Shown one piece after another: positions 4,642 to 26,734 of a stretch of DNA of 28,421 bases. The stretch's first letter is position 1. The number at the start of each line of letters is the position of its first letter. The notes beneath the pieces are model-generated. The model saw nothing but the letters and a program-made list of their open reading frames with translations, searched no databases and was not told where the DNA came from. The position numbers and the translations under genes were made by a program. The stretch is from a virus, in IMG/VR virus record IMGVR_UViG_3300042923_001814, positions 1-28,421 of that record. The stretch is one strand, 5' to 3'.

Positions 4642-4666
4642 TCGTGTAGAAAGCCTTTCTACACGA
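4642..4666. promoter_or_regulatory. Late-operon palindrome, site 1 (candidate Ogr-type activator site)
   Basis: A perfect inverted repeat with 12-bp arms (TCGTGTAGAAAG / CTTTCTACACGA) around one central C at 4654, containing TGT-N13-ACA. It lies in the 168-bp gap between the divergent terminase (-) and scaffold (+) genes. The centre is 59 bp from the P start codon and 110 bp from the O start codon. P2 Ogr/Delta proteins bind TGT-N12-ACA dyads upstream of late promoters, so this is the likely equivalent, with one extra base. No T tract follows, so it is not a terminator. A GATC (4640-4643) overlaps its left edge. Confidence 0.75.
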
Positions 4667-4763
4667 GCCGCGCCTTGAGAAGATCGCCGGCTTCGGTCCC
4701 TGTTCGTGGCTCCAGAGCGGCATCGCGCCGCGTGCCGATTATCGAACCGAGGACCGCAGCGCC

Positions 4764-5579
4764 ATGGGCAAGAAGAGCCAGCTATTCCGCGTTTTCGTCG
4801 AGGGCGAGACGATCAGCGATGGTCGCAAGATCACCGCCGACATGATCGACGATTGCGTCGCCACCTTCGATCCGAAGACCTACACGCCCCGCATCAACAT
4901 CGAACATATCGCCGGCTACAGCCCGGAACCGCCCTTCAACGGCTATGGCGATGTGATTGCGGTCGAGGCGCGCGATGACGAGTTCACGATCGCCGGCCAA
5001 GCCAAGAAGCTCCGCGCGCTCTATGCGCAGGTCGACGCCAACGACCAGCTGGTGAAGCTCGCCCAGGCCGATCAGAAGCCGTTCCCCTCGGTCGAACTCA
5101 CCCCCAGCTACGCCGGCAGCGGCAAGGTCGGCCTGGTCGGCCTCGCCTTCACCGACACGCCCGCCTCGATCGGCACCGAACGCCTGAAATTCTCCAGCCG
5201 CGCGCCTGGCACGATCTTCGCGCATGGCACCGACGCTGTGGCGATCGAGTTTGAGGCCGCGCCTGCCGACACCAGCGGCATCAGCGATGCGATCCACGCC
5301 GGCTTTTCCCGTGTGGTTGCGCTGTTCAAACCGCAGGCGCCGGAACCGGCGAAGGAAGAGCCAAAGGAGCCGGCAAACGACAACGACCGCTTCGCGACCG
5401 CGATCGAGGCGCTCGGCACCACCATCACCGCCGCGATTAAGCCAATCGCCGACGCGCAGGCCGCGACCGACCAGCGCTTCGCCGCGCTCGAAAAGAAGCT
5501 GGAGACGAGTGAGGCGCCGAGCGGCTTCTCGCGCGCCCCGCACGCGGGCGGCACCGGCGGTCTGCTGACGGACTGCTGA
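4764..5579 (+). CDS. O: Capsid scaffolding protein with maturation protease (P2 gpO family)
   Basis: A 271-residue protein, against 284 in P2. The N-terminal serine protease domain shows the expected triad at almost P2 positions: D19 (SDGRKI), H48 (NIEHIAG) and S109 (FPSVEL). A proline/glutamate-rich linker (about 190-207) leads to an alpha-helical C-terminal scaffold segment (FATAIEALGTTITAAI onward). In P2 this protein organises capsid assembly and then cleaves itself, the capsid and the portal. It is the first gene of the rightward late operon. A GAGGA ribosome site lies about 10 bases before the ATG, and a leader of about 100 bp separates it from the palindrome. Confidence 0.95.
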   Translation: MGKKSQLFRVFVEGETISDGRKITADMIDDCVATFDPKTYTPRINIEHIAGYSPEPPFNGYGDVIAVEARDDEFTIAGQAKKLRALYAQVDANDQLVKLAQADQKPFPSVELTPSYAGSGKVGLVGLAFTDTPASIGTERLKFSSRAPGTIFAHGTDAVAIEFEAAPADTSGISDAIHAGFSRVVALFKPQAPEPAKEEPKEPANDNDRFATAIEALGTTITAAIKPIADAQAATDQRFAALEKKLETSEAPSGFSRAPHAGGTGGLLTDC

Positions 5580-5630
5580 TCCAACCCGCCCCTTCCCGAC
5601 CCGCCTGACCGACCTTCTGGAGCAAGCCCC

Positions 5631-6680
5631 ATGCGCAATGCCACCCGCGTCCTCTTCCACTCCTTCTGCTCGCAGATCGCGCTGCTGAGCGGCGTCGCCA
5701 GCGCGCAGGAGCGCTTCACCGTTGCCCCGTCTGTCGCCCAGCGACTGATCGAGGTTCAGCAGTCGCAGAGCGACTTCCTGTCGCGCATCAACGTCATCAC
5801 GGTGCTGGAGCAGGAAGGCGACAAGGTCGGCGTCGGCGTCACCCGCCCGATCGCCGGTCGCACCAATACCGCTGCCGGCACGCGCCGCGTTCCCACCCCG
5901 GCGACCGACACGTCGGACATGGGGCGCTATCGCTGCGAACAGACGAACTTCGACACCGCGATCAAATATGCGACGCTCGATGCGTGGGCGCACAAGCCCG
6001 AGTTCCAGCAGCTCGTCCGCAACGCCATCCTGAAGCGCCAGGGCCTCGACCGGATCCTGATCGGCTGGCACGGCACCTCGGTCGCCGCGCAGACCGATCG
6101 CGCGGCCAACCCGCTGCTGCAGGACGTCAACAAGGGCTGGCTGCACAAGATCCGCACTTTCGCGCCCGATCGCGTCATCGCCGATGGCGAGCTGACGGAC
6201 GGCGCCACTAAGGCGGTCTATGTCGGCGACGGCGCGGTCGGTGACGACGTCGATTACGTCAATCTCGACGCGCTGGTGATGGACGCGATCGAGGCGCTCG
6301 ACGAGTGGAACCGCGACGACACCGAACTGGTCGTGATCTGCGGTCGCGATCTTGTCCACGACAAGTACTTCAGCATCGTCAATGCGGCCGGCGACAAGGC
6401 CACCGAGCAGCTCGCGCGCGACGTTCTGATGTCCACCAAGAAGATCGGTGGTCTGCCGGCGGTGCGCGTGCCGGGCTTCCCCGCCGGCAAGCTGCTGATC
6501 ACCCGCCTCGATAACCTCTCGATCTACGAGCAGGAAGGCACCCGCCGTCGCCTGGTCAAGGATGAACCGGCGCTCGACCAGATCGAGAACTACGAGAGCG
6601 TGAACGAGGCCTATGTCGTCGAAGACTACGGCCTGTGCTCGCTCGTCGAGAACATCGTGATGGGCAAGAAGCCGGCCTGA
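5631..6680 (+). CDS. N: Major capsid protein (P2 gpN family)
   Basis: A 349-residue protein, against 357 in P2, with recognisable gpN features. These are VAPSVAQRLIEVQQSQSDFLSRINVI near residues 31-56, RYRCEQTNFDTAIKYATLDAWA, KRQGLDRILIGWHGTS and the C-terminal ENYESVNEAYVVEDYG. It forms the icosahedral shell with an HK97-like fold, after N-terminal trimming by gpO. A GGAG ribosome site lies before the ATG, 51 bp after O. A 6-bp-stem hairpin (GCCGGC, 6671-6688) spans its stop codon and could help protect the abundant capsid message. Confidence 0.96.
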   Translation: MRNATRVLFHSFCSQIALLSGVASAQERFTVAPSVAQRLIEVQQSQSDFLSRINVITVLEQEGDKVGVGVTRPIAGRTNTAAGTRRVPTPATDTSDMGRYRCEQTNFDTAIKYATLDAWAHKPEFQQLVRNAILKRQGLDRILIGWHGTSVAAQTDRAANPLLQDVNKGWLHKIRTFAPDRVIADGELTDGATKAVYVGDGAVGDDVDYVNLDALVMDAIEALDEWNRDDTELVVICGRDLVHDKYFSIVNAAGDKATEQLARDVLMSTKKIGGLPAVRVPGFPAGKLLITRLDNLSIYEQEGTRRRLVKDEPALDQIENYESVNEAYVVEDYGLCSLVENIVMGKKPA

Positions 6681-6727
6681 GCGCCGGCCACGCCCCACCC
6701 CTAAGCCCGCTCTCCACAGGACACGCC

Positions 6728-7519
6728 ATGAGCCTCGCTCGACGCAACCGGGAACGCATCCTGGCACAACAGCAATCGGCGTCCGCTCCTGCCAACATGG
6801 GGAGCGGGCTGACCACTATCGCGCAGGCCGCGTCCGGCGCGGCCGAGCGCGCAGCAGCGCAGATCCAGCTTCGCCTGACGCACGATCTGCGCCGCCTGAA
6901 GGAGATCCAGTCGATCGAGGCGAAGATCGCCGCCAAGCGGGAGATGATCGGCGAATATGCCGCATGGGTTGGCGGGCTTCTCGAACTCGGCCAGCGCGGA
7001 AGCATCGGCGTCGCGGAGGACGTCCTGCCCACCATCATGGTCTGGGCGATCGACACAGCCGACTGGAGCTACGCGCTGCGACTGGCCGAGCATGTGCTGC
7101 GCCACGAAATCCCCCTTCCCGCTCGCTATCAGCGCGCCGCCCCGGCGCTGCTGGTCGAGGAGGTCGCCGAGGCCGCGCTCAAGCTGCAAGCGAAGGGCGA
7201 GGCTTTCCCGCTCGACGTGCTGGAACAGGTCGAGGCGCTCACCGCCGATGCCGACATGCACGACGAGATCCGCGCCAAGCTGATGAAGGCGATCGGCACC
7301 GAACTCGCCCGCCTGGCGGATGCGACGAAGCCGGGCACGGCGGCCTTCGTCGACGCTGCCGAGCGCGCGCTCGTGCCGCTGCGCCGCGCGCAGGATCTGC
7401 ACGGCCGCGCCGGCGCGAAGATGACCATTCAACGGCTGCAGAAGGCGATTGCCAACGCTGCCAAGGAACAAGCCGCGCTCGCGGCACAGGAACAGGCCGG
7501 CACCGCGCCGGCCGCATAG
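6728..7519 (+). CDS. M: Terminase small subunit / endonuclease subunit (P2 gpM family)
   Basis: A 263-residue protein, against 247 in P2. I placed the start at the ATG at 6728 (MSLARRNRERILAQQ), preceded by AGGA. It has a basic N-terminus, a long helical stretch with LRRLKEIQSIEAKIAAKREMI (about 53-73), and family segments EDVLPTIMVWAIDTADWSYAL and AEHVLRHEIPLP. Together with gpP it recognises cos and makes the staggered cut during packaging. The alanine-rich C-terminal tail is variable. The gene sits in the conserved O-N-M-L order. Confidence 0.93.
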   Translation: MSLARRNRERILAQQQSASAPANMGSGLTTIAQAASGAAERAAAQIQLRLTHDLRRLKEIQSIEAKIAAKREMIGEYAAWVGGLLELGQRGSIGVAEDVLPTIMVWAIDTADWSYALRLAEHVLRHEIPLPARYQRAAPALLVEEVAEAALKLQAKGEAFPLDVLEQVEALTADADMHDEIRAKLMKAIGTELARLADATKPGTAAFVDAAERALVPLRRAQDLHGRAGAKMTIQRLQKAIANAAKEQAALAAQEQAGTAPAA

Positions 7520-7522
7520 CTC

Positions 7523-7541
7523 GCCCCCGGCGCTCGGGGGC
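7523..7541. other. Intercistronic GC hairpin downstream of terminase small subunit
   Basis: A perfect 7-bp-arm hairpin (GCCCCCG / CGGGGGC, loop GCGCT) starts four bases after the M stop codon. It is not followed by a T tract, so full termination is unlikely. It could attenuate transcription or block 3' decay. The remaining bases to 7635 show no other feature. Confidence 0.4.
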
Positions 7542-7635
7542 AGATCGCGCGAGACGGGAGGGCTTTCGGGCTGAGGGCCGTCGATCGACCCGGTCTCCAC
7601 CCCCGTTTGCCAGTGGGCGGAACAGGATCGAAAAC

Positions 7636-7878
7636 ATGCCGCAGCTCGCGCAACATCTGCTCGCCACCCTGCTGGTCGCAGCTGGGGGCTGGTTCGCCTT
7701 CGCTGGCGCAATCGCCGCGGCGGTGCCCGAGGCGCTCGCTTTGTCCGACGTCCTCGCCGGCTATCGTGTCGCGCCGATCGCCGCGCGCCACGCCCGCCTG
7801 CTCGCGTTGCTGGTGGCACTGCTCGGGATCCTGCTCTTCGTCGCCGGCGCCATGCTCGCTGTCCGCAGCTTCCCATGA
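7636..7878 (+). CDS. Small two-helix membrane protein between M and L
   Basis: An 80-residue protein with two hydrophobic segments (about 5-30 and 53-75) joined by a short loop (SDVLAGYRVAPIAARHAR). An AGGA ribosome site precedes the ATG, and its last four bases overlap the start of head-completion gene L. P2 has no gene at this place. The topology and size fit a class II holin or antiholin, but a stronger holin candidate lies at 8579-8932. Function is therefore open. An accessory lysis or envelope role is inference. Confidence 0.6.
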   Translation: MPQLAQHLLATLLVAAGGWFAFAGAIAAAVPEALALSDVLAGYRVAPIAARHARLLALLVALLGILLFVAGAMLAVRSFP

Positions 7879-8360
7879 GCAGCTTTCCCCTCCCGATCGT
7901 CGACAATGGCAGCGACGACGCTCCCGCCGTCGAGGCACCGATCATCAACGACGGCTTCTTCCCCGACGTGGATCCCGCGCTGTTCGCGCGTGAGATGCGC
8001 GTGCGCGATGCCGTCACGCCTGAACGGCGCCGGCGTGCGCTGGTCGACGCGATCATCACGGTGGGTAATCAGCTCGCCGCCTGGCGCGACCGGCAGCTGC
8101 TCGCCGGCAGCGCGACGCTCAGCGCTGTCGCCAGCCCGACGATCGATGGTGAAAGCCGCCTCGTCCAGCTCTACCGCACCGCGATCTTCAGCGAGGCCAA
8201 GGCCAAGCTGGTCGAGCGCTATCGCGACGCCGACATCACCCGTGCCGGCAAGGATCAGGTCGAGGATCTGGAACCCTCGATCGGCGAGCTGCGGCGCGAT
8301 TCGGTCTATGCCGTGCGCGATATCCTTGGCGTCGGCCGCGTCACCGTTGCGCTGATCTGA
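7875..8360 (+). CDS. L: Head completion/stabilisation protein (P2 gpL family)
   Basis: A 161-residue protein, against 169 in P2. The family core is visible: INDGFFPDVDPALFAREMRV (about 24-43), then ALVDAIITVGNQLAAWRDRQ, LVQLYRTAIFSEAKAKLVERYRD and a C-terminal RRDSVYAVRDILG. The gpL protein closes the filled head before tail joining. The start overlaps the preceding gene by four bases (ATGA), and the stop shares one base with the ATG of gene X. Confidence 0.92.
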   Translation: MSSFPLPIVDNGSDDAPAVEAPIINDGFFPDVDPALFAREMRVRDAVTPERRRRALVDAIITVGNQLAAWRDRQLLAGSATLSAVASPTIDGESRLVQLYRTAIFSEAKAKLVERYRDADITRAGKDQVEDLEPSIGELRRDSVYAVRDILGVGRVTVALI

Positions 8361-8575
8361 TGGCCGACACGCTCACCGCGCGCCAGGGCGACACGCTCGA
8401 CGGGCTGATCTGGCGCGAGCGCGGCCTCGGGATCGAGGATTGCCCCGCCATCCTCGCGGCCAATCCCGGTCTCGCCGCGCTCGGCCCCACCCTGCCCGCC
8501 GGCACCGCCGTCACCATTCCCGCGATCTCCGCGCCGGCGCTGCCGGTCCGCGACATCGTCCAGCTCTGGAGCTGA
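8360..8575 (+). CDS. X: Tail protein X, LysM-like (P2 gpX family)
   Basis: A 71-residue protein, against 67 in P2, with a LysM-like layout. ARQGDTLDGLIWRERG comes first, then an AILAANPGLAALG helix and LPAGTAVTIPAI. LysM modules bind glycan chains. In P2-type phages gpX is required for tail assembly and is thought to connect baseplate or tube parts with peptidoglycan. It overlaps the L stop by one base. Confidence 0.9.
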   Translation: MADTLTARQGDTLDGLIWRERGLGIEDCPAILAANPGLAALGPTLPAGTAVTIPAISAPALPVRDIVQLWS

Positions 8576-8578
8576 CGC

Positions 8579-8932
8579 ATGGACAAGCACCTTCACGAGA
8601 TCGCCGACGCGGTCCTGTCGTTCCTGCTCAGCCTCGTGCCCTCGGCGTTGGGCGCGACGGTCAGCATGCTGGTCGACGACGGGATCACCTGGGGCAAGAT
8701 GTTCGCCCGGCTCTGGGTCGGCATCGTGGTCAGCTATTTCGTGAAGGGCGCGCTCGTCGCCCTCCTGTCGCTGCACCCCTTCGTCGTCGACGCGATCAGC
8801 TTCCTCACCGGGATGGTCGCCTACAAATCCGCGCCCGGTTTCATCGCCGGCTGCTCGGCCGCGATCGGCGAGGCGCCCGGCCTGATCCGCGATCGTCTGC
8901 TCGCCTTCCTGCCTTCCAAGGAGAAGAAGTGA
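8579..8932 (+). CDS. Phage holin
   Basis: A 117-residue membrane protein with three hydrophobic segments (about 10-31, 44-66 and 68-83) and a charged C-terminal tail (LPSKEKK). The length, topology, basic tail and position directly before the endolysin fit a holin that permeabilises the inner membrane at a set time. The pattern HEIADAVLSFLLSLVPSALGA resembles LydA/holin-3 type proteins, though I cannot assign the family with certainty. Its stop codon shares one base with the endolysin ATG. Confidence 0.75.
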   Translation: MDKHLHEIADAVLSFLLSLVPSALGATVSMLVDDGITWGKMFARLWVGIVVSYFVKGALVALLSLHPFVVDAISFLTGMVAYKSAPGFIAGCSAAIGEAPGLIRDRLLAFLPSKEKK

Positions 8933-9423
8933 TGCCCGCCAAGAGCCGAAAGTCGCTCGCCGGTGTCGTCGGCGTGGCCTGCGCGCTGCTGCTCGCGCCG
9001 TTCGTGTCCGGCTGGGAAAGCGGCGGCAAGCCGCGCCTCGACGCCTATCAGGACATCGTCGGCGTCTGGACGATCTGCGACGGCGAGACCGAGGGCGTGA
9101 AGCCCGGCATGCGCGAGACGCTCGCCGGCTGCGCCGCCCGCAACGAGGCCGCGCTGATCCGCCACGCCGAACCCGTGCTCGCCTGCACGCCTGCCTTGCG
9201 CGGCCACCCGCACCAGCTCGCCGCTGCCGTGTCGCTCGCCTACAATATCGGCACCGGTGCCTATTGCCGCTCGACCGTCGACCGCCGCTTCGATGCCGGC
9301 CAGTGGCGCGCTGCCTGCGACGCCTTCCTGATGTGGAACAAGGCGGGCGGAAAGGTCGTGAACGGCCTCGTCCGCCGGCGCCAGGCGGAACGCGACCTGT
9401 GCCTGAAGGATCTGCCGCGATGA
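8932..9423 (+). CDS. Endolysin, glycoside hydrolase family 24 lysozyme with signal-anchor-release N-terminus
   Basis: A 163-residue muramidase. A weakly hydrophobic N-terminal segment (residues 9-27, rich in Gly/Ala) directly precedes the catalytic domain, the arrangement of SAR endolysins. The GH24 triad is seen as E29 (WESG), D41 (YQDIVG) and T47 (VWTICDG). The family helix QLAAAVSLAYNIGTGAYC and the terminal VNGLVRRRQAERDLCL are also present. It cleaves the glycan backbone of peptidoglycan. The SAR segment would let it reach the periplasm through Sec and activate when the membrane depolarises. It sits between holin and spanins in a standard lysis cassette. Confidence 0.92.
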   Translation: MPAKSRKSLAGVVGVACALLLAPFVSGWESGGKPRLDAYQDIVGVWTICDGETEGVKPGMRETLAGCAARNEAALIRHAEPVLACTPALRGHPHQLAAAVSLAYNIGTGAYCRSTVDRRFDAGQWRAACDAFLMWNKAGGKVVNGLVRRRQAERDLCLKDLPR

Positions 9424-9887
9424 TCCGCTCAGTGTTCGCATGGGTGCGTGCGGAGGCGACCTTCCTCGTCCTGCTCGCCGTCGCCGCTGCCGGCGCCTGG
9501 CTCTATGTCGAGGTGCAGCGGATCCGCGCCGATCGCGACGATCTGCTGCACACGGCCGAGAAGATCTGCGCCCGTGCCGGCGCCGACTGGGCGGCGACGA
9601 AGGAGGCAAAGCGAGGCGTCCTGTGCGCCCGACGCGCAGCCGAGCTGGCGACGTTCAAGAGCACCGCCGATCAGGAAACCGCGCGCTTGCTCGCCGCGGC
9701 GATGGAGGAGGCGAACGCCCGCGCCGCCCGTGACCTGCAGAGCGCCAGCACGTCCGCCGCGCGCATGCGCGATGCCCTTACCCGAATGGAGAACGCCGAT
9801 GCGCAAGCCGAGCGCCGCAACCTTGTCGATCGTGAGTGGACTGCTGCTGTCAACGGCGTTGCCGGGCTGCGCCCACCGGGCCGCTGA
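9420..9887 (+). CDS. Inner-membrane spanin subunit, Rz-like
   Basis: A 155-residue protein with one N-terminal membrane anchor (FLVLLAVAAAGAWLYVEVQ, about 15-33). A long charged periplasmic helix follows (about 34-140), rich in Arg, Glu and Ala, which fits the coiled rod of an i-spanin. It starts with an ATGA overlap on the endolysin stop. Its last 89 bases are shared, in another frame, with the Rz1-like lipoprotein gene, the classic overlapped spanin layout. Role: fusion of inner and outer membranes in the last lysis step. Sequence similarity in this family is low, so the call rests on topology and context. Confidence 0.8.
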   Translation: MIRSVFAWVRAEATFLVLLAVAAAGAWLYVEVQRIRADRDDLLHTAEKICARAGADWAATKEAKRGVLCARRAAELATFKSTADQETARLLAAAMEEANARAARDLQSASTSAARMRDALTRMENADAQAERRNLVDREWTAAVNGVAGLRPPGR

Positions 9888-10131
9888 CCTCCCGCCGGCG
9901 CCCGCGCCGGTCGCGATCAAGGTCGAGGCTCCCCGCCCGCCCGCCGAGCTGCTCGCCTGCGCCGAACGCCCCGCCGGCCTGCCCGAGGATCCGGATCTGA
10001 TCGCGCAGATCCCGACGCGGCTGCGCGCCGGCATCATCCGCCTCGCACAGGCATTCGGCGCCAATGCCGACCGGCACGATCGCCTGGTCGACTGGAACGC
10101 TCCGGGCACCTGCCGCAAGGCCGCGCCGTGA
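9799..10131 (+). CDS. Outer-membrane spanin lipoprotein, Rz1-like
   Basis: A 110-residue protein whose N-terminus is a lipoprotein signal (MRKPSAATLSIVSGLLLSTALPGC) with lipobox LPGC, so Cys24 should be lipidated. A proline-rich stretch follows (DLPPAPAPVAIKVEAPRPP), typical of Rz1 proteins. The C-terminal half (ADLPEDPDLIAQIPTRLR-like region) is longer than in lambda Rz1 (60 residues total). It overlaps the 3' end of the Rz-like gene in the +1 frame, and its stop overlaps the GTG of gene R. It would anchor in the outer membrane and pair with the Rz-like protein. Confidence 0.85.
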   Translation: MRKPSAATLSIVSGLLLSTALPGCAHRAADLPPAPAPVAIKVEAPRPPAELLACAERPAGLPEDPDLIAQIPTRLRAGIIRLAQAFGANADRHDRLVDWNAPGTCRKAAP

Positions 10132-10613
10132 AGAAGGCCGACAGCCTGAAGGCGCTGCTGCTCGCCTCGGTACCGGCGCTGAAGGCGGACCCGGCGAAGC
10201 TCGCGCTCTTCGTCGACAAGGGCAAGGTGTCGGCGGTGCGCAGCAACACGCTCGCCTTCCAGCTCGGCTATACGCTGACCATCTGGATCGAGGCCTATGG
10301 CGGCGATCTCGACGGACTGTTCGTGCCGGTGCTGGCATGGATCGCGCAGAACCAGCCCGAGCTGATCGACCGGCCCGATGGCGAGCCCTTCACCTTCGAG
10401 TCCGAAGTCCTCGACGGCGACACGGCGGATATCTCGATCGAGATCGAGCTGACCGAGCGTGTGCTGATCGAGCGCCGCGACGACGGAAAGCTGCGCACCC
10501 GTCACCTCGACGACGCGCCGATCGCCGACGTTTTCGCTGGCGCCGAGGGTGCTCGCCTGTGGCACACCATCCTCGATGACCAGCTCGCTGGTAACAATCA
10601 GGCGTCGGCATGA
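10128..10613 (+). CDS. R: Tail completion protein (P2 gpR family)
   Basis: A 161-residue protein, against 155 in P2. The motif FQLGYTLTIWIEAYGGDLDGLFVPVLAWIAQNQPEL (about 44-79) is characteristic of the gpR family. It is followed by an acidic beta region with SIEIELTERVLIERRDDG. It starts at a GTG overlapping the Rz1 stop (GTGA) and overlaps gene S by four bases. With gpS it completes the head-proximal end of the tail. Confidence 0.92.
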   Translation: MKKADSLKALLLASVPALKADPAKLALFVDKGKVSAVRSNTLAFQLGYTLTIWIEAYGGDLDGLFVPVLAWIAQNQPELIDRPDGEPFTFESEVLDGDTADISIEIELTERVLIERRDDGKLRTRHLDDAPIADVFAGAEGARLWHTILDDQLAGNNQASA

Positions 10614-11269
10614 GCGACCTGATCGAGATCAACGATCTCGCCACCGCGCTGCTGCAAAGCCTCGCGCCCGGCGCCCGGCGCAAATTGCTTCACCGGATCG
10701 CCCGCGAAACCCGAAATAGCCAATCCGAGCGTATCCGCCGGCAACAGCAGCCAGACGGGTCACCTTTCGCGCGCAAGCGCGAGCCGCGCGAGCCAAAGCT
10801 CGGCGCCTTCGCGGTGCGCTTCCTGTATCCCAAGGGGGCGGCGAACGCGCGCGTTGCCTTCATGAAGAGCTGGGTCCGTCAGGGGCCGCTCATGACCGGC
10901 TTCGACATCGAGGCAGGCGCAATCCGCTCGTTCTTCTGGGATAAGGCGGACTTCCTTCCCGTATCCGCTGACGAGCAGAACCGCGGCGCGGGCAAGCTGC
11001 GCCGAAAAGGTCGACTTCGCGAGAAGGTAATGTTCCGCAAGCTTCGCCTGGCCAAATATCTCCAGAAGGGCGTGGAAGGTGATGAGGCGTGGATCGGCTT
11101 CGCCGACCGCGCTGCGGCCGTCGCCCGCGTTCATCAGGAAGGCCTCGAAGATCGGCCTTCGCTCAAAGGCAAGAAGGTGCGCTACGCGCAGCGCGTGCTG
11201 CTTGGCCTGACCAACGCCGAACAGGACCATATCCTCGACATGCTGGTCGAAGCTGTCATGCCGTCGTGA
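10610..11269 (+). CDS. S: Tail completion/virion morphogenesis protein (P2 gpS family)
   Basis: A 219-residue protein, against about 150 in P2. The N-terminal half shows the family core LLQSLAPGARRKLLHRIARETRNSQSERIRRQQQPDGSPFARKR (about 14-57), and the C-terminus retains YAQRVLLGLTNAEQDHILDMLVEAV. The extra length is an internal basic region (about 115-150, RGAGKLRRKGRLREKVMFRKLRLAKYL). It is the last gene before the second palindrome, which begins one base after the TGA. Confidence 0.88.
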   Translation: MSDLIEINDLATALLQSLAPGARRKLLHRIARETRNSQSERIRRQQQPDGSPFARKREPREPKLGAFAVRFLYPKGAANARVAFMKSWVRQGPLMTGFDIEAGAIRSFFWDKADFLPVSADEQNRGAGKLRRKGRLREKVMFRKLRLAKYLQKGVEGDEAWIGFADRAAAVARVHQEGLEDRPSLKGKKVRYAQRVLLGLTNAEQDHILDMLVEAVMPS

Positions 11270-11294
11270 TCGTGTAGAAAGCCATTCTACACGA
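11270..11294. promoter_or_regulatory. Late-operon palindrome, site 2 (candidate Ogr-type activator site)
   Basis: Inverted repeat TCGTGTAGAAAG - C - CATTCTACACGA with one mismatched pair, centred at 11282 and again containing TGT-N13-ACA. It fills the start of the 71-bp gap between S and J. Its centre is exactly 59 bp from the J start codon, the same distance as site 1 to P. A GATC (11268-11271) overlaps the left edge. No T tract follows. Confidence 0.75.
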
Positions 11295-11340
11295 GCGCGG
11301 CATAGCCAGCTGCGCGCGCGGCGCACGACATGGCCGCGCT

Positions 11341-12234
11341 ATGGCCGCCAGCTCTACCACCGTCGACCTTTCGCGCTTGCCCGCTCCGACCTTTGTCGAG
11401 CAGCGCTCGTTCGAGGAAATCCTCGCCGACATCATCGCCCGCGTGCAGCAGCTGCTGCCGAGCTTCGACGCCACGGTCGACAGCGATCCTGCCGTGAAGG
11501 TGCTGCAGGTCGCCGCCTATCGCGAGTTCCTGCTGCGCCGCGCCTTTCAGGATGCCGCGCTGCAGCTGCTCGTTGCCTATGCGACCGGCGCAGGGCTCGA
11601 CCACCTCGGCGCGCTCGTCGGCGTCGCGCGCCTGGTGATACAGCCTGCCGACGAGGTCACTGGTGCGGCAGCGGTGATGGAGGCCGACGATCCCTTCCGT
11701 CAGCGCATCGTCCTCGCGCCGGAAAGCTTCTCTTCCGCCGGCCCCGAGCTGGCCTATGTCGCGCACGCCAAGAGCGCGAGCGCCGAGATCCTCGACGCCA
11801 GCGCCACCTCCCCGGCGCCGGGCCGCGTCCTCGTCTCGATCCTGTCGAACACCGGCGACGGCAGCGCTTCGCCCGAATTGGTGGCTGCGGTCGACGCGAT
11901 CGTGAACGACAAGGCGATCCGGCCGCTCGGCGATCTGGTGACGACGGCATCGGCGACGATCGTCCCGTTCGAGATTCGCGCCAGCATCGTCACCTTCTCC
12001 GGCCCCGACATCGCTCTCGTGCTGAACTCAGCCTATGCCGCCCTCGCCGCTTACCTCGGCGACAATCGCAAGCTCGGCCGCGCAATCACCCGCTCCGGCC
12101 TGATCGCGGCGCTGACCGTGCCCGGCGTTCACCGCGTGGATCTCGCCAGCCCCGCTGCCGACGTCGCCTGCGATCCGACGCAGGCCGCGTGGAACACCTC
12201 GGCCGTCCTCGACCATGGCGGCTATGCCGCATGA
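11341..12234 (+). CDS. J: Baseplate assembly protein (P2 gpJ family)
   Basis: A 297-residue protein, against 302 in P2. The start VDLSRLPAPTFVEQRSFEEIL mirrors gpJ proteins. Other family segments are VLQVAAYREFLLRRAFQDAALQLLVAYATGAGLDHLGALVGV (about 57-98), DDPFRQRIVLAPESFSSAGPELAYVAHA and VNDKAIRPLGDLVTT. It forms the outer wedge ring of the baseplate. No Shine-Dalgarno is visible before the ATG, notable given the closeness of the palindrome. The stop overlaps the I start (ATGA). Confidence 0.95.
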   Translation: MAASSTTVDLSRLPAPTFVEQRSFEEILADIIARVQQLLPSFDATVDSDPAVKVLQVAAYREFLLRRAFQDAALQLLVAYATGAGLDHLGALVGVARLVIQPADEVTGAAAVMEADDPFRQRIVLAPESFSSAGPELAYVAHAKSASAEILDASATSPAPGRVLVSILSNTGDGSASPELVAAVDAIVNDKAIRPLGDLVTTASATIVPFEIRASIVTFSGPDIALVLNSAYAALAAYLGDNRKLGRAITRSGLIAALTVPGVHRVDLASPAADVACDPTQAAWNTSAVLDHGGYAA

Positions 12235-12875
12235 CCCTGCTGCCGCCCAACGCGACCGCGCTTGAACGCGCGCTGGAGCATGGCACCGCGCAGCTGAGCG
12301 ATGTCACTGCCCCGATCGACACGCTGGTCAATCCCGCGACGATCGCGCCCGAGGCGCTGCCGTGGCTCGCCTATGGCCTCTCGGTGGATAGCTGGAAGGC
12401 GAGCTGGCCCGAGGCGCTGAAGCGCCGCGCCGTCGCCGGATCGATCGCGCTCCACCGCATCAAGGGCACGCGACGCTCGGTCGAGATGGTGCTCGCCCGG
12501 ATCGACGAACTGTCCAGCGTGCTGGAGTGGCACGAGGATCCCGCACGCCTGTCGCCCAACACGTTCGAGATCGACCTGCCGCTAGTCATCGACGCCGGCG
12601 CTCCGGGAGGTGACCGCGCCAGCGCCGCGATGGTCGATGAGATCATAGCCGAAGTCGGCAAGGTAAAGCCCCTGCGGGAACACCTGACCGTCGTTCAGAG
12701 CCTCGTGCTTGAAGGCGGCGTCGGTGTTCAGGGCGCTGTCCGGCTGGCTTCCTACACTCGCGAAGACACCGCGCTGCAGGTCGACACCTCTGCCGCGTGG
12801 GACTTCTACCTGCAAACCGAAGACGGCGAGCCGCTCCAGACGGACGCCGGCACCTTTCTGGACACCGCGGAATGA
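12231..12875 (+). CDS. I: Baseplate/tail protein I (P2 gpI family)
   Basis: A 214-residue protein, against 176 in P2. I used the ATG at 12231 that overlaps the J stop. The core LLPPNATALERALEHGTAQLS and then PEALPWLAYGLSVDSWKASWPEALKRRAVAGSIALHRIKGTRRSVEMVL (about 41-89) is diagnostic. The C-terminal third (VQGAVRLASYTREDTALQVDTSAAWDFYLQTEDGEPLQTDAG) is an extension that probably contacts the fibre. It overlaps the fibre gene by four bases. Confidence 0.92.
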   Translation: MTLLPPNATALERALEHGTAQLSDVTAPIDTLVNPATIAPEALPWLAYGLSVDSWKASWPEALKRRAVAGSIALHRIKGTRRSVEMVLARIDELSSVLEWHEDPARLSPNTFEIDLPLVIDAGAPGGDRASAAMVDEIIAEVGKVKPLREHLTVVQSLVLEGGVGVQGAVRLASYTREDTALQVDTSAAWDFYLQTEDGEPLQTDAGTFLDTAE

Positions 12876-13861
12876 CAAAACTGACCCTTACGGTGACGCG
12901 CGGCGGCCTGGAGCGGTTCACGGCTGCTCAGCTGGACGATGACCTCGATCTGTCAATCGCAACGGTCGGGCTGACCGACAGGGCGTTTGTCGCGGCGCCG
13001 ACACTCGATGCGCTGCCGGGCGAGTTCAAGCGGCTCGCCACGATCTCGGGCGATCAGGTCGGCGACAACATCATCCACATGACACTGCGCGACGAAAGTG
13101 AGGATGCCTATACTGCGAAGGGGTTCGGCCTGTTCCTTGCCGATGGAACCTTGTTTGCTACCTACTGCCAGGAGAGCAGGCTGTTTGAAAAGTCGCCCCG
13201 CGCAACTTTCCTGGCGGCGATCGACATCGGCTTTCCCACTGGTGACGTGTCCGAGCTTCGCTTCGGCAACACCGACTTCCTCAATCCGCCAGCGACCACC
13301 ACGCGAAAGGGCGTGGTCCGCCTCGCCACCCCAGCCGAGGTCGCTGCCGGTCAGTCGTCGGAGTCGGTGACGACGCCGGCAGACCTGCGCCGGGTGCGCT
13401 TCGCGGGAGAGATTACCATCTGGTACGGCAGTGCCGAGGCGGTGCCGGCTGGCTGGGCGATCTGCGATGGTCGTCAGGTCGAGCGCAGCGATGGCACCGG
13501 CCCGATCACCACGCCGGATCTTCGCGGTCGCGTGGTGGTCGGCGCGTCCGCAGATCAGGCGCCCGGCGCGCTGTTCGGCGCGGCCTCGCACGCTCTCTCC
13601 ACCAGCGCCGCGGGTAATCACAACCATGCCGCCGCGACCACGATCACGCCTAACGCGACGGGCCTGTCGGTCGACACCTCAAGCCGCAGCGTGGACGCGG
13701 GCAGCTCCGCGAACAACGTCCTCAACGCTGTGTCACTGATCGATCCTGGTCATGCTCATGGCGCAGCCACCACGACCGAGGCGGCCGGCACGCACCACCA
13801 TGACCTCACCATCGACGTGATCCAGCCGTCGATCGCACTCCACTTCATCATGAAGGTCTGA
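12872..13861 (+). CDS. H: Tail fibre protein with collar domain (P2 gpH-like)
   Basis: A 329-residue protein, far shorter than P2 gpH (669). I placed the start at the ATG overlapping the I stop. The N-terminal domain (1-135) is of the tail-collar-fibre type that attaches to the baseplate. It is followed by a short fibre repeat (TTTRKGVVRLATPAEVAAG, 142-160) and a tail-collar domain (GEITIWYGSAEAVPAGWAICDGRQV, about 179-203, with TPDLRGRVVVGA). The tip has histidine pairs GNHNH, GHAH and THHHD (about 248-310), as in metal-binding short-fibre tips, and ends IALHFIMKV. No G-type fibre chaperone follows. Confidence 0.88.
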   Translation: MTKLTLTVTRGGLERFTAAQLDDDLDLSIATVGLTDRAFVAAPTLDALPGEFKRLATISGDQVGDNIIHMTLRDESEDAYTAKGFGLFLADGTLFATYCQESRLFEKSPRATFLAAIDIGFPTGDVSELRFGNTDFLNPPATTTRKGVVRLATPAEVAAGQSSESVTTPADLRRVRFAGEITIWYGSAEAVPAGWAICDGRQVERSDGTGPITTPDLRGRVVVGASADQAPGALFGAASHALSTSAAGNHNHAAATTITPNATGLSVDTSSRSVDAGSSANNVLNAVSLIDPGHAHGAATTTEAAGTHHHDLTIDVIQPSIALHFIMKV

Positions 13862-13863
13862 CT

Positions 13864-15288
13864 GTGGCCAAAATCTCTCAACTTCCTCCGTTGGATCAGC
13901 CGACCGGCGACGAACGCGTTCCCGCCGTTGACCCGGGCGGAGTGACGAAGGTTGCCAACATCCGCTCCCTTGTCGCGGCAGCGGCGGAAGTGCCCGTCGC
14001 CGAAGCCACCGCGCAAGCTGCAAGGGCCAAGGTCATTGCCGACGGCTTCGCAGACGCAGCCGAGATCGCGGGCCGTTACGTCGATGGCGAGGGAGAGTTC
14101 GTCGAGGTCGACGCAGATCCAGCCGGAAATGTTATGCGCGGCGTGACGCCGCGCGGACGATATCATTTCTCAAGCCTGGCCGTTGGCCCGGCGAACAACG
14201 AGAGCGCGGATGTTCCGCGCTTTGAATTCGCGGACGGCAAGATGGCGTTCCGCGGCAAGGGCTTCATGCCGTCCGCGAATGGAACGGTGTCGCTGATGGA
14301 CCTGTCCGCGACCGAGTGGGCGGACGCAGCCGAGTTGGTCATTGACGAAGCAGGCTTCGTGATCTCCGCGGTGATGCGGGACGGGCGAGTGCTTTCTACC
14401 GCAGGGCTGACGCCCAAAACCGGGAACAAGGCACGGCTGATCGACACCGCGATGCTGCCGGACGGCGCGCTTGCACCTAATCCCAGCGGCGGTTGGACGG
14501 GCACCGGACTGGACCGGGTGCCAGTCGGTCACCGTTATGCCGGCTGCTGGCTGGTCGCCAATCATGGGCAGGATCGGGCTTACAGCCCCGAGAACCCCAA
14601 GGCGTCGGTCTATCAATCGTCCGTCCTACTGCTCACGCCGGATCGGCGCCGGATCATCTGGGAGCGACCGATGCCGGCCGGCGCGCAAAGCGTGCAGGGC
14701 GTCGCGCGCGGCATGGAGGCGAATACCTATTGGGCGGTCGACAAACGACCGTCCGCACCCGCGCTATCCTCGATCCGCAAGTTCGACTTCTCCGGAGTGG
14801 AAGATGCTGCGGCGCGGATCTTGATCACCGACCTCATGCCAGCGCCCGATTTCAACCTGAACGGTATCGCGCTGCATCCTGGCGTCGGGTCGGCTGGCGG
14901 CTTGTGGGTCGGCTGCAACGGCATCCAGCGGATTTATCTCGTGGACATTGCCACCAAGGCGATCCTGCGCACTTTCACGACGTTTGCCGCAGCCGGTGAC
15001 CAGATCGGCTATGACGCAAAGCGCGACTGGTTGTACTTCAGTTATGGCCCCAACGGCACCGATGGCGTGGTCAGGTTCCTGAACGGAACCACCGGAAACA
15101 TACTCGGCGACGTCGTCCTGCCCGGCTCCCAATCAATTGAGGGCATCAAGCTGATCGAGCCGGAAACGCCGTTCTTCACGAAGCCGGGTCACTTCCAAAT
15201 GCTCTCGGTCAACGATGGCGGTTACCACACAGAGGCGAAGCCGCCGCTTTCCCAAACGAACCTCAACGAAGTCTTTCTGGAGTTCTGA
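13864..15288 (+). CDS. Putative receptor-binding tail protein with beta-propeller-like C-terminus
   Basis: A 474-residue protein starting at a GTG two bases after the fibre stop. The N-terminus (MAKISQLPPLDQPTGDERVPAVDPGG) resembles short attachment domains at the start of phage tail proteins. An alanine-rich helix follows (about 40-70). From about 200 there are repeated beta-strand blocks such as GCWLVANHGQDRAYS, TYWAVDKR, GLWVGCNGIQRIYLVDIATKAIL and DWLYFSYGPNGTDGVVRFLNG. These look like NHL/quinoprotein-type propeller blades. No catalytic motif is evident. Location in the fibre module suggests host-surface recognition. That role is inference and the fold assignment is tentative. Confidence 0.6.
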   Translation: MAKISQLPPLDQPTGDERVPAVDPGGVTKVANIRSLVAAAAEVPVAEATAQAARAKVIADGFADAAEIAGRYVDGEGEFVEVDADPAGNVMRGVTPRGRYHFSSLAVGPANNESADVPRFEFADGKMAFRGKGFMPSANGTVSLMDLSATEWADAAELVIDEAGFVISAVMRDGRVLSTAGLTPKTGNKARLIDTAMLPDGALAPNPSGGWTGTGLDRVPVGHRYAGCWLVANHGQDRAYSPENPKASVYQSSVLLLTPDRRRIIWERPMPAGAQSVQGVARGMEANTYWAVDKRPSAPALSSIRKFDFSGVEDAAARILITDLMPAPDFNLNGIALHPGVGSAGGLWVGCNGIQRIYLVDIATKAILRTFTTFAAAGDQIGYDAKRDWLYFSYGPNGTDGVVRFLNGTTGNILGDVVLPGSQSIEGIKLIEPETPFFTKPGHFQMLSVNDGGYHTEAKPPLSQTNLNEVFLEF

Positions 15289-15290
15289 TC

Positions 15291-16031: not shown

Positions 16032-16038
16032 CCATTAC

Positions 16039-16073
16039 GCTGCTCGTGTAGAAAGCCTTTCTACACGAGCAGC
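16039..16073. promoter_or_regulatory. Late-operon palindrome, site 3 (candidate Ogr-type activator site)
   Basis: The longest copy: a perfect inverted repeat with 17-bp arms around one central C at 16056. Its inner 25 bp are identical to site 1, including TGT-N13-ACA, and the arms extend outward as GCTGC / GCAGC. It begins eight bases after the lectin-like gene and precedes V. The centre is 44 bp from the first V ATG (16100) and 56 bp from the second in-frame ATG (16112). The long stem lacks a following T tract. Confidence 0.75.
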
Positions 16074-16099
16074 CCCTCGCACTCGCGATCCCGCCGCGC

Positions 16100-16663: not shown

Positions 16664-17025
16664 TCGGCATGGATCGCAACACCGGCAAGCCCTGCGAGGG
16701 TGCCGACCACCTGCGCCAGTCCATCGCCGACATCCTCGGCACGCCGCTCGGCACCCGTGTCGGCCGGCGCGACTATGGCTCGCACATCCCCGAGCTGCTC
16801 GATCAGCCGCTCAATGATCTGACGCGGATCCGCGTCTTCGCTGCCGCTGCCCTGTCGCTGCTGCGCCAGGAGCGCCGCGCACGGATTGATCGGATCGCGC
16901 TCGAACCCGGCGACGCCTCCTGCAGCGCCCGCCTGATCGTCACCGGACGGCGCACCGACGTCGTCGGCCCCTCTGCCGCCTTCGCCTTCTCCACCCCCCT
17001 CTCCGCGCTCAGCTTGCTCGTCTGA
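16660..17025 (+). CDS. W: Baseplate wedge protein (P2 gpW / T4 gp25-like)
   Basis: A 121-residue protein, against 115 in P2. Family hallmarks are HLRQSIADILGTPLGTRVGRRDYGSHIPELLDQPLN (about 17-52), which includes the GTRVGRRDYGS motif of gp25-like proteins that nucleate the sheath. The C-terminal part is a beta sandwich edge (SARLIVTGRRTD). It overlaps the V stop codon (ATGA) and is followed after 13 bp by the sheath gene. Confidence 0.94.
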   Translation: MIGMDRNTGKPCEGADHLRQSIADILGTPLGTRVGRRDYGSHIPELLDQPLNDLTRIRVFAAAALSLLRQERRARIDRIALEPGDASCSARLIVTGRRTDVVGPSAAFAFSTPLSALSLLV

Positions 17026-19291: not shown

Positions 19292-19292
19292 C

Positions 19293-24590: not shown

Positions 24591-24599
24591 GTTTGAAGG

Positions 24600-24616
24600 C
24601 TACAAAGGATTTGTAC
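24600..24616. promoter_or_regulatory. Operator O1 in the repressor/Cro intergenic region
   Basis: Inverted repeat CTACAA-AGGAT-TTGTAC, with five matching bases per arm around a 5-base spacer; the inner TACAAA-GGA-TTTGTA is a perfect dyad. It lies 10 bp upstream of the repressor start codon. It matches O2 in arms and spacer length, with centres 26 bp apart. It is probably bound by the CI-like repressor and/or the Cro-like protein. Confidence 0.7.
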
Positions 24617-24625
24617 AATCAGCTC

Positions 24626-24642
24626 CTACAAATTGCTTGTAG
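24626..24642. promoter_or_regulatory. Operator O2 in the repressor/Cro intergenic region
   Basis: Perfect inverted repeat CTACAA-ATTGC-TTGTAG (6-bp arms, 5-base spacer). It lies 30 bp upstream of the Cro-like start codon. A further TTTGTA half-site (24667-24672) overlaps that start codon. No -35/-10 pair could be called with confidence, but both divergent early promoters must lie in this 81-bp gap. Confidence 0.7.
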
Positions 24643-24671
24643 CCGCTGGTTTTTGCTGGTAGCCCGTTTGT

Positions 24672-24995
24672 ATGGATGACAAACAGCGGACCCAAGCGTT
24701 GGAGGCGTTCAAGGAAGCCGTCGGGCTGGCGCGCACTCAAACCGCATTCGCGGCCACGGTCGGCCTTACCCAGCAGACGGTGTCCAATCGCCTTAGGCGG
24801 AATGACCTGTTGCCTGCGCATGCTGTGCTCGCAGCTGAGCGGGCCTACGGCATATCTCGACATCTGCTTCGCCCCGACATCTACCCGCCCGTTGGAACTC
24901 CGGGCCTGCCTCCGTCCGAAACCGGTATGGAGGCAAGTCGCCCTTCAGTCGCATTCAATCCTACAGTCAAACTGAAGCCGGCGGAGGTAGCATGA
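24672..24995 (+). CDS. Cro-like regulator of the YdaS type
   Basis: A 107-residue protein with a helix-turn-helix (about 20-45, ARTQTAFAATVGLTQQTVSNRLRRN). The segment LPAHAVLAAERAYGISRHLLRPDIYPP is typical of the YdaS/Cro family found opposite CI-type repressors in prophages. A disordered tail follows. As first gene of the rightward early transcript it should act as the lytic-side repressor of the CI-like gene. YdaS has been described as antitoxin-like in databases, but no YdaT-like partner is present, so a Cro role is preferred. Confidence 0.85.
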   Translation: MDDKQRTQALEAFKEAVGLARTQTAFAATVGLTQQTVSNRLRRNDLLPAHAVLAAERAYGISRHLLRPDIYPPVGTPGLPPSETGMEASRPSVAFNPTVKLKPAEVA

Positions 24996-25489
24996 CGCAG
25001 CTGCGCGCACCTCTCACCTTCCCAGCGGCCATGACCCGTGTCGCGGGCGTCATCGGCTGGCCCGCCTGCGCGGCGCTCGCGCGGCGCAACGAACGCACCC
25101 TGCGCTACTGGTCAGAGGATGGCTGCAAGGCCACGCCGCCGATCAACCTCGCGCTGGCCTATGACGCTGCCTATCAGGCGGCGGGCGGCGACGGCGCTCC
25201 CTTCCTCGACGCCTTCGCGCACCAGCTGCAGGTCACCCGCGATCAGCACGACGCCTGTCGGCGCGAGCTTGCCGTCGCCGTGGCAGACGCATCGTCGGAA
25301 AGCGGCGAAGCCGTCGCTGCCGCCATCACCCTTACGCACACCAATGCCTCGCCGCGCTTGGCGCTCCGCGCGCTCGCCGAGGCAGAGCAGGCGCGCAACG
25401 CCTGGGGGCGCCTGATCCGGCGCCTGACACCCTTCCTTCCGAGCGGCACGGGGCCGGTCGCAGGGGATACCGGGGGCACCCACCAGTGA
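24992..25489 (+). CDS. Probable phage regulatory protein, possibly CII/CP76-like
   Basis: A 165-residue protein that overlaps the Cro-like gene by four bases (ATGA). The N-terminal part contains a possible DNA-binding unit (about 15-62, AMTRVAGVIGWPACAALARRNERTLRYWSEDGCKATPPINLALAYDAAY). It is followed by an alanine-rich helical region (about 75-150, AHQLQVTRDQHDACRRELAVAV and ALRALAEAEQARNAWGRLIRRL). This two-part layout and its place after Cro resemble CII/CP76-type phage regulators. I cannot confirm the family. Its stop overlaps the Ogr-like GTG start. Confidence 0.5.
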   Translation: MTQLRAPLTFPAAMTRVAGVIGWPACAALARRNERTLRYWSEDGCKATPPINLALAYDAAYQAAGGDGAPFLDAFAHQLQVTRDQHDACRRELAVAVADASSESGEAVAAAITLTHTNASPRLALRALAEAEQARNAWGRLIRRLTPFLPSGTGPVAGDTGGTHQ

Positions 25490-25833
25490 AGAACCGACGT
25501 CCTTACCCGCCGCGCATGCCGGCCATCGCCTGCCCGCACTGCCAGTCACGCTCGATCGTGCGCAACAGCTGCGAGGTCACACCGACGGTCCGCGAGCTGC
25601 GACTGACCTGCGAGAACATCGATTGCGGCCACGTCTTCGTGGCGCAGCTGTCGGTGATCCGCACGCTGCGTCCGGCCGAACAGCCGAACCCGGCCGTGCG
25701 GATCCCGTTCGGCACCTGGCGCAGCCAGCCGGCCACGCCCGCCAACGACGATAGCCCTCCTCTGCCCGCCAACGATGACCACGGCATCGGCGTCGCGCTC
25801 GCCGCGATGCTGGACGCCAACATGACCACCTGA
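25486..25833 (+). CDS. ogr: Ogr/Delta-type zinc-finger activator of late transcription
   Basis: A 115-residue protein, against 72 in P2 Ogr. It contains the family finger C16-X2-C19-X22-C42-X4-C47, exactly the P2 Ogr/Delta spacing, in the context ACPHCQSRSIVRNSC, RELRLTCENIDCGHVFVAQLSVIRTL. P2 Ogr binds TGT-N12-ACA dyads and recruits RNA polymerase alpha to late promoters. The GTG start overlaps the upstream stop. ATG 25516 (residue 11) is an alternative and gives the more usual family N-terminus. The C-terminal tail has a repeated PANDD element. It lies in the early operon rather than beside gene D as in P2, so early expression would switch on late operons. Confidence 0.9.
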   Translation: MKNRRPYPPRMPAIACPHCQSRSIVRNSCEVTPTVRELRLTCENIDCGHVFVAQLSVIRTLRPAEQPNPAVRIPFGTWRSQPATPANDDSPPLPANDDHGIGVALAAMLDANMTT

Positions 25834-25877
25834 CCAACGCGGCCCCGCGCCGCGCTCCCCTTCGCTGCCCCCTGCCC

Positions 25878-25899
25878 GCTGAAAGCACCCGCTTTCGGC
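25878..25899. other. Hairpin between the Ogr-like gene and the next gene
   Basis: A stem of six perfect pairs (GAAAGC - ACCC - GCTTTC, 25881-25896), extendable to nine with one wobble pair. It lies in a 100-bp pyrimidine-rich gap before the TTG-started gene at 25934. No T tract follows. It could attenuate or protect mRNA; function is not established. Confidence 0.35.
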
Positions 25900-25933
25900 A
25901 ACGCCCCCCGCTTGCCCTGAAAGGACCGCCCCG

Positions 25934-26380
25934 TTGATCCACGTTTCTCCTCAGCAGCTCGCGTCTGCGGCCGTCGTGACGACGCAGCCAAGGGCGCTCA
26001 CGCCCGCCCGGTATCTGGCGCTCCGCCGCTCGGCCGCGGGCATGTCGATCAATGCGGTCGCCGTCATGATCGCGGCGAACAAGCGCGATCTCGGCGAGGC
26101 ACGCGATCTGATCGCGTTGCTCGAAACGCCCGGTGCCGTCGCGCGCCGGCCCGAAACGATCGACGCGCTTCGCAACGCCTTCCCCTTCGATCCGGATGTC
26201 TACCGGCAGCTCGCCTCTGAACCCGCTGAACGCCACCCGCGCGTCTGCCATGCATGCGGTTGCAGCGCTTGGGATCCGCACGTCGACGCGCACGGTATCG
26301 AGACGCTGGACTGGGCGGACGAGGCCACCTGCACGCGTTGCGACAATGCAGCCTCGATCGCGACGGGACGTCTACGGTGA
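25934..26380 (+). CDS. Small zinc-binding protein, unknown function
   Basis: A 148-residue protein starting at TTG, chosen because a good AAAGGA site lies about 10 bases upstream. The first half is helical (ARYLALRRSAAGMSINAVAVMIAANKRDLGEARDLIALLETPG), perhaps a helix-turn-helix. The C-terminal part has C105-X2-C108-G-C110 and C133-X2-C136, fitting one structural zinc site. The stop overlaps the next start (GTGA). It sits in the early operon where P2 would hold replication functions, but I see no nuclease, primase or helicase motif. Confidence 0.65.
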   Translation: MIHVSPQQLASAAVVTTQPRALTPARYLALRRSAAGMSINAVAVMIAANKRDLGEARDLIALLETPGAVARRPETIDALRNAFPFDPDVYRQLASEPAERHPRVCHACGCSAWDPHVDAHGIETLDWADEATCTRCDNAASIATGRLR

Positions 26381-26511
26381 GCGCCGCCTCTCGTGCGCCC
26401 GGGCCCCGCTATCCGCGCCTGAAAACGGCACTGGTGGTCATCGCAGCGATCATCGCGTTTCCCGTCACCATCGCGCTGATGGTTGCTGCCGTTTCGGCAG
26501 GTCGGCGATGA
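26377..26511 (+). CDS. Micro membrane protein 1 (44 residues)
   Basis: A 44-residue protein from a GTG overlapping the upstream stop. A basic N-terminus (SAASRAPGPRYPRLK) leads to one transmembrane helix (TALVVIAAIIAFPVTIALMVAAVSA, about 17-41). Its stop overlaps the ATG of the next small membrane protein. The chain of four-base overlaps supports translation of both. Function is unknown. Confidence 0.5.
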   Translation: MSAASRAPGPRYPRLKTALVVIAAIIAFPVTIALMVAAVSAGRR

Positions 26512-26651
26512 TCGCCGCCATCCATTATGCTGTTGTGGTGCTGGTGTTCGCCGGCGCCGCAGCCATCGCGATCGGCGCGATCGCTATCACGGTTATGCCG
26601 CGGCGCCGGCGCATCGCGAATCTGCTCGCGCAGGCGGTGATGATCCGATGA
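26508..26651 (+). CDS. Micro membrane protein 2 (47 residues)
   Basis: A 47-residue protein from an ATG overlapping the stop of the previous gene. It is one long hydrophobic helix (IHYAVVVLVFAGAAAIAIGAIAITVM, about 5-30) with a basic cytoplasmic end (PRRRRIANLLAQAVMIR). Paired with the 44-residue protein just upstream it could form a two-component membrane unit. The early-operon position argues against a role in late lysis. Function is unknown. Confidence 0.5.
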   Translation: MIAAIHYAVVVLVFAGAAAIAIGAIAITVMPRRRRIANLLAQAVMIR

Positions 26652-26709
26652 TGGTGCGCCCCACGCCGTTGAGCGCGCCTGACGGCGAACGCTCCGATCT
26701 ACGATCCGC

Positions 26710-26734
26710 TCGTGTCGGATCGCATTCTACACAA
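26710..26734. promoter_or_regulatory. Degenerate fourth copy of the late palindrome
   Basis: Contains TGT-N13-ACA (26713-26731, centre 26722). It agrees with site 2 at 19 of 25 positions, including TCGTGT on the left and ATTCTACAC on the right, but its inner arms no longer pair. The centre is 61 bp upstream of the ATG at 26783, close to the 59 bp at P and J. A GATC (26718-26721) lies inside. It may be a weak Ogr-responsive site. Confidence 0.5.

Follow-up and report, generated by a model that had tools for sequence, protein, structure and literature searches.

What reads the long, nearly identical palindromes that mark the late operons of a P2-like phage? The window, i.e. the whole of virus record IMGVR_UViG_3300042923_001814 (28,421 bases), holds three such dyads together with a gene for a zinc-finger protein of the Ogr/Delta family, and a first-pass annotation had proposed that protein and dyads belong together. 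Comparing the window with related viruses and with bacterial genomes, we estimate a probability of roughly 0.88 that the palindromes serve as operators for the Ogr-type activator that the phage itself encodes at 25486-25833; this protein would recruit host RNA polymerase to the late promoters. This reading is based on the match of gene map and dyad positions with P2, on conserved -35/-10-like blocks at a fixed distance from the dyad, on the single centre length found in related late-gene loci together with the frequency of the Ogr family in such phages, and on operators that are shared within a phage, co-vary with Ogr and change spacer along with sequence.

Palindromes and Ogr protein of the window

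The palindromes share a 25-bp near-perfect consensus, TCGTGTAGAAAG-C-CTTTCTACACGA, i.e. TGT-N13-ACA. A scan for TCGTGTAGAAAGNCTTTCTACACGA matched at 4642-4666 (0 mismatches), 11270-11294 (1 mismatch) and 16044-16068 (0 mismatches), the third copy extending to 35 bp with 17-bp arms (16039-16073); 100 dinucleotide shuffles gave 0 matches, so that none of the three copies is expected by chance. These results confirmed the dyads that had been proposed from the letters alone. The accompanying claim that each of them heads a late operon held in so far as they mark late operons, but the copy at 4642-4666 heads no single one, since it lies between the divergent genes P (minus strand, ATG 4595) and O (plus strand, ATG 4764).

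4642-4666, unstranded: proposed operator 1, in the divergent P/O gap, a single dyad for two promoters, kept at the same place in relatives
11270-11294, unstranded: proposed operator 2, in the S/J gap, heading the J-I-H operon
16039-16073 (core 16044-16068), unstranded: proposed operator 3, in the H/V gap, heading the V-W-FI-FII-T-U-D operon
25486-25833, plus strand: Ogr/Delta zinc-finger protein, proposed late activator (PF04606, phrog_603, conserved cysteines, AlphaFold2 model)

The product of 25486-25833 matched PF04606 (Ogr_Delta) with an E-value of 6e-14 and 52.1 bits (curated cut-off 26.3), as well as phrog_603 (transcription regulation). Its predicted zinc-binding cysteines, C16-X2-C19-X22-C42-X4-C47, were all invariant in 54 aligned homologues, which bears out the finger and the cysteine spacing that had been read from the translation, and an AlphaFold2 model, confident for the core only, shows this core as a beta zinc-ribbon with a predicted local distance difference test score (pLDDT) above 90. 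PF04606 was detected in 43 of 50 P2-like virus contigs; the remaining seven were all fragments below 27 kb, and every one of those contigs of 28 kb or more had an Ogr.

Protein family searches identified the late region as P2-like, with matches to portal, gpP-type terminase, gpO scaffold, P2 capsid, baseplate proteins J, I, V and W, sheath and tail protein D. The features that define Peduoviridae were found (gpO scaffold, P2-type capsid, gpP-type terminase, P2-type tail genes and divergent P/O); the phage is a P2-like phage of Sphingomonas-type bacteria. The closest phage record had 62% identity in terminase (an unclassified faecal sequence) and less than 58% in capsid.

2745-4595, minus strand: terminase large subunit, P (PF03237, PF17289, PF06056, PF04860)
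1691-2743, minus strand: portal, Q, continuation of the P operon
4764-5579, plus strand: capsid scaffold/protease, O (PF05929), first in the O-N-M-L-X-lysis-R-S operon
11341-12234, plus strand: baseplate J (phrog_6, phrog_4226), first gene behind operator 2
16112-16663, plus strand: baseplate V (phrog_9992), first gene behind operator 3

Operators are shared within a phage and diverge between phages together with Ogr

IMG/VR was scanned for GTGTAGAA-N3..6-TTCTACAC. Viral loci with window-like late genes, four of which match the window through a lysis gene only, contained 28 palindromes, all with a centre of five (TGT-N13-ACA) and none with three, four or six, whereas loci without such genes had 15, 2, 10 and 19 palindromes for centres of 3, 4, 5 and 6, respectively. 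We also surveyed P/O gaps from 80 terminase relatives in viral contigs and from four phage records, and found TGT-N13-ACA 35 times, N14 seven times and N12 once, 13 being the commonest spacing in the clade. The gaps without TGT-N13-ACA nearly all bore another long palindrome in the same place, e.g. CAATCGTAGAGA (as in L225), CATATGGAGAGG, CATCGGGCGAGA or CATTTGGACAG (as in L210), and we therefore rejected TGT-N13-ACA as a general rule: of some 15 half-sites in the clade (operator classes, distinguished by eye, with spacers of 12, 13 or 14), TGT...ACA is but one.

Within a phage, the operators are alike. The mean half-site distance among P/O, J and V operators of 39 phages was 0.11 within a phage vs 0.44 between phages (permutation p=5e-4), and odd/even symmetry agreed in 113 of 117 within-phage pairs vs 56% between phages (permutation p=5e-4). 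Likeness within and unlikeness between phages call for a trans-acting reader. Related prophages had dyads before J and V with other arms and usually N13; one genome had N12 (G178) and another N14 (G149), each with the same spacer in both its J and its V operon, so that spacer and operator sequence change together.

The divergence of the operators tracks that of Ogr and neither that of terminase nor that of the gene next to ogr, a conclusion that these sequence comparisons strongly support. Among 35 phages, operator distance correlated with Ogr distance at 0.70, and at 0.55 once terminase was accounted for (partial r, p=2e-4), vs 0.14 for operator and terminase given Ogr. The Ogr correlation stood at 0.58 (p=3e-4) given both terminase and the gene directly upstream of ogr, and that upstream neighbour, given Ogr, reached -0.04, on which ground we rejected it as the operator reader. 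A second panel, of 22 prophages with partly hand-picked sites, repeated the correlation of operator with Ogr distance when the sheath protein served as control (0.36, p=2e-4). At the finest scale, a near-minimal pair of phages (L220 and L241) differed at eight Ogr residues in the stretch compared and at one base of half-site positions d13-d4 (CAATGGTAGAG vs CAATCGTAGAG, G or C at d9), each phage having the same base in all six of its arms. The co-occurrence of dyads with Ogr and their co-variation thus support the pairing that the first-pass annotation had suggested.

One phage is an exception to the identity of operators within a phage: in L193 (IMGVR_UViG_2828624843_000002), the P/O operator is GTAGTGGCG and the J and V operators are GGTGTGGCG, and both arms differ.

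Promoter geometry and proposed mechanism

When promoter sequences were aligned on the dyad centre, the P/O profile, built from 66 phages, had TTGAG on the O side (+21 to +25, conserved at 92, 95, 94, 83 and 88%, base by base). On the P side it had a -10-like block spanning +45 to +50, with A in 82% at +46 and T in 82% at +50, and the ATG followed at about +59. The J profile had GACATG at +45 to +50, and the V profile CATGGT at about +43 to +48 with the V start near +56, a position that favoured ATG 16112 over ATG 16100 as the start of V.

4604-4609, minus strand: TAGGTC, predicted -10 element of the promoter of P (terminase/portal); distance to the dyad centre 45-50 bp
4675-4680, plus strand: TTGAGA, predicted -35 element of the O promoter; distance to the dyad centre 21-26 bp
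11327-11332, plus strand: conserved block GACATG, at the -10 position of the J promoter in the J profile
16099-16104, plus strand: conserved block CATGGT, at the -10 position of the V promoter in the V profile

If the conserved block is read as a -10 element, the dyad centre falls near -56, in keeping with late-promoter sites centred about -55 as judged from the position of the dyad relative to promoter blocks and start codons, the start points being predicted. In the window, the dyad centre is 59 (P), 59 (J), 56 (V, ATG 16112) and 110 (O) bases from the start codon. A leaderless or almost leaderless message is accordingly predicted for P, J and V, and a leader of about 54 bases for O, with transcription expected to begin at about 4598 (minus strand), 4710, 11338 and 16112.

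The sequences show the sites, where they lie, that a phage shares them among its operons, that they co-vary with Ogr and that promoter blocks are conserved at a fixed distance; Ogr binding, dimerisation, activation and start points are what we infer. In this model, the two half-sites of each dyad would be bound by Ogr, probably a dimer or pair, during the late phase of infection. The centre of the dyad would lie some 56 bp ahead of the start point, and Ogr would bring host RNA polymerase to weak promoters. Two divergent promoters would be driven from the P/O dyad, and J-I-H and V...D from the other two.

Distribution in host genomes

A scan of 84,980 species genomes, bacterial and archaeal, found the 25-bp pattern in seven stretches, four of them in three Sphingomonas genomes and three in unrelated organisms. 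Three of the four Sphingomonas stretches carried P2-like late genes. All matches with at most three mismatches were confined to one stretch of about 14 kb in each of two Sphingomonas genomes, and the third genome had a single match, next to uvrB. Among 401 genomes from the family to which Sphingomonas aracearum belongs, 41 contained PF04606, with mostly P2-like regions around the Ogr gene, but a single one contained the palindrome (at most one mismatch), and there it lay within the prophage; most Ogr-bearing prophages must thus use other sites. A host-wide repeat was rejected on the same count. The expectation of the first-pass annotation that the palindrome would not be widespread in hosts away from prophages largely stood: two of the three Sphingomonas genomes have it in P2-like prophages, and the exceptions are the uvrB match and the three unrelated organisms.

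Alternative explanations and points against an Ogr operator

The palindromes could instead be intrinsic terminators or RNA hairpins that end the upstream operons. They form strong RNA hairpins (z -7.8 at 16030-16095), two of them directly follow a stop codon (S at 11269 and the H-region gene at 16031), and a similar palindrome stands just after uvrB in one host genome. In the P/O gap, however, two divergent genes begin on either side of the copy and no gene ends; no palindrome is followed by a T-run, and a terminator scan listed none of them. A hairpin, moreover, needs neither a shared sequence at three places nor co-variation with Ogr nor a fixed distance to the start codon. In view of the P/O copy, the lack of T-runs and the co-variation, we rejected the terminator reading, which we regard as very unlikely.

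Still less probable, in our view, is another regulator that co-evolves with Ogr, such as the YdaS-like protein encoded at 24672-24995 or the protein of 24992-25489. Both genes adjoin ogr in many relatives, and a TGT-N13-ACA dyad (24609-24633) precedes the YdaS-like gene. Against this, the upstream neighbour showed no correlation with the operators beyond that of Ogr, several phages with good sites lacked a detectable homologue of the 24992 gene (G062 and G079), whereas no contig of at least 28 kb lacked Ogr, and distance and layout agree with the Ogr sites of P2. Recent duplication or conversion might also make operators alike within a phage with no selection by a DNA-binding protein, and two copies are indeed identical over 25 bp; but the likeness does not extend beyond the dyad and the short promoter blocks, which keep a fixed register, the arms mirror each other, and parity and spacer are constant within a phage and variable between phages, which leaves this explanation the faintest chance of the three.

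Several observations weigh against Ogr operators. A sigma-70 consensus scan of 2700-17000 found no promoter, and the -10 blocks match sigma-70 poorly. A search of PDB structures with the Ogr model returned no informative match and no structural homologue showing DNA contact. In the Sphingomonas sp. UBA978 genome bin, a palindrome with 24 of 25 letters (L083:5141-5165) stands directly 3' of uvrB, with no phage genes in 30 kb and no prophage; it is possibly a chance occurrence, a terminator or a relic. The sites of the second panel were partly hand-picked, and the permutation tests on distance matrices, in either panel, leave some relatedness in.

As to the lone UBA978 palindrome itself, a satellite was considered and rejected on its position 3' of uvrB and the failure to find a phage gene.

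Further dyads and divergent Ogr loci

The degenerate fourth copy that the first-pass annotation had listed is present. At 6 of 24 mismatches it is non-random as sequence, because 60 shuffles gave no window with seven or fewer; its region (26710-26734) found no DNA match in the relatives searched and is not conserved. It lies ahead of ATG 26783, the in-frame start of a gene near the integrase for a small, putatively DNA-binding protein (26710-27142), and an Ogr-dependent promoter at this site may thus act on the lysogeny side of the phage.

26710-26734, unstranded: degenerate fourth operator (putative), TGT-N13-ACA, centre 61 bp ahead of ATG 26783

At 24609-24633, GATTTGTACAATCAGCTCCTACAAATT pairs in 9 of 13 arm positions; 51 bp separate this dyad from the YdaS-like gene at 24672, the first of the genes that lead up to ogr. 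The dyad had no DNA-level conservation in the relatives searched, and could be a repressor operator or a site of Ogr autoregulation.

A subgroup of Ogr proteins has C-X5-C (e.g. CRNPDAC), with five rather than four residues between the last two cysteines (L208, L209, L210, L211, L212, L222, L223, L226, L239 and L253). In the phages that carry them, G replaces the spacer-adjacent T of TGT (TGG, GGG or TCG). In the 20 kb to each side of two further Ogr homologues (G017 contig C5 near 29101, L170/L171; G038 contig C7 near 143581, L158/L159), no P2-like structural genes were found, and these loci are candidate satellites or remnants.

Comparison with known late-gene activators

The late-site consensus of P2 is cited as TGT-N12-ACA (PMC3931495), to which the TGT-N13-ACA sites of the window do not conform. 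The annotated activator sites of P2, however, contain no exact TGT-N12-ACA either; this consensus is thus no strict defining feature of Ogr sites, and the one extra base is measured against a loose standard. P2, whose late promoters are PP, PO, PV and PF, otherwise resembles the window: its Ogr has the same C-X2-C-X22-C-X4-C pattern, and its divergent P and O promoters have an activator site in common (3057-3087 in NC_001895), at a distance of 56 bp from the start point of P and 55 bp from that of O. The dyad centre thus precedes the start by about 55 bp, and transcription of V is annotated as starting at the V start codon. P2 has weak dyads as sites, in contrast to the 25-35 bp near-perfect palindromes with N13 seen here, and its operons are split as V-W-J-I-H-G / FI...D instead of J-I-H / V-W-FI...D.

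The operon split of the window has a counterpart in Stenotrophomonas phage Smp131 (NC_023588), with J-I-H / V-W-F operons behind PJ' and PV', proposed PP' and PO', and an Ogr-like protein with C-X2-C-X22-C-X4-C (PMC3931495). The Smp131 terminase P is 53% identical to that of the window. Unlike the window, Smp131 has no near-perfect palindromes, and no exact TGT-Nk-ACA (k=9-17) was found in the three gaps examined. The late motif of Ralstonia phages phiRSY1/phiRSA1, TGTTGT-(X)13-ACAACA, shares the inner TGT-N13-ACA, a position 50-90 bp before start codons and the presence of an Ogr homologue (PMC5694545), but, as compared from the published motif, its half-site arms are different. P4 Delta, of the same family (PF04606), is an Ogr homologue that promotes late genes of P2 and P4 (PMC8628076), and differs in being satellite-borne. 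TGT-N13-ACA also precedes genes of Burkholderia FLC5 and Acidovorax Acica.

With N13 in phiRSY1/phiRSA1, FLC5 and Acica, and commonest in the clade itself, the 13-base spacer is not a new property. Of the distinct binding specificity that had been proposed, what stands is that the site differs from those of relatives; the spacer does not set it apart. A search of the open-access literature, outside which most subscription papers fall, found no description of diversified, Ogr-matched late operators. The mechanism is hence already known, and the diversified, co-varying Ogr/operator pairs appear to be new.

Implications

The palindromes change together with Ogr in related phages, so that the DNA-reading code of Ogr can be worked out. 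We put at about even odds a broader proposal: that in this alphaproteobacterial P2-like clade Ogr is a rapidly diversifying DNA reader, with some 15 largely mutually exclusive pairs (spacers 12, 13 and 14) and a residue-to-base code readable from natural near-minimal pairs. Mutual exclusivity would mean that a phage, along with its satellites, responds to no activator but its own. With natural pairs at hand, near-minimal ones included, small proteins and short pieces of DNA are enough for a direct test of the recognition code. Checking for the leaderless late messages predicted here is also simple. The palindrome itself is a marker for late promoters in Sphingomonas-type P2-like prophages. Ogr/operator pairs could moreover yield orthogonal compact activators, and a recognition code would explain which phages and P4-like satellites can activate each other's late genes.

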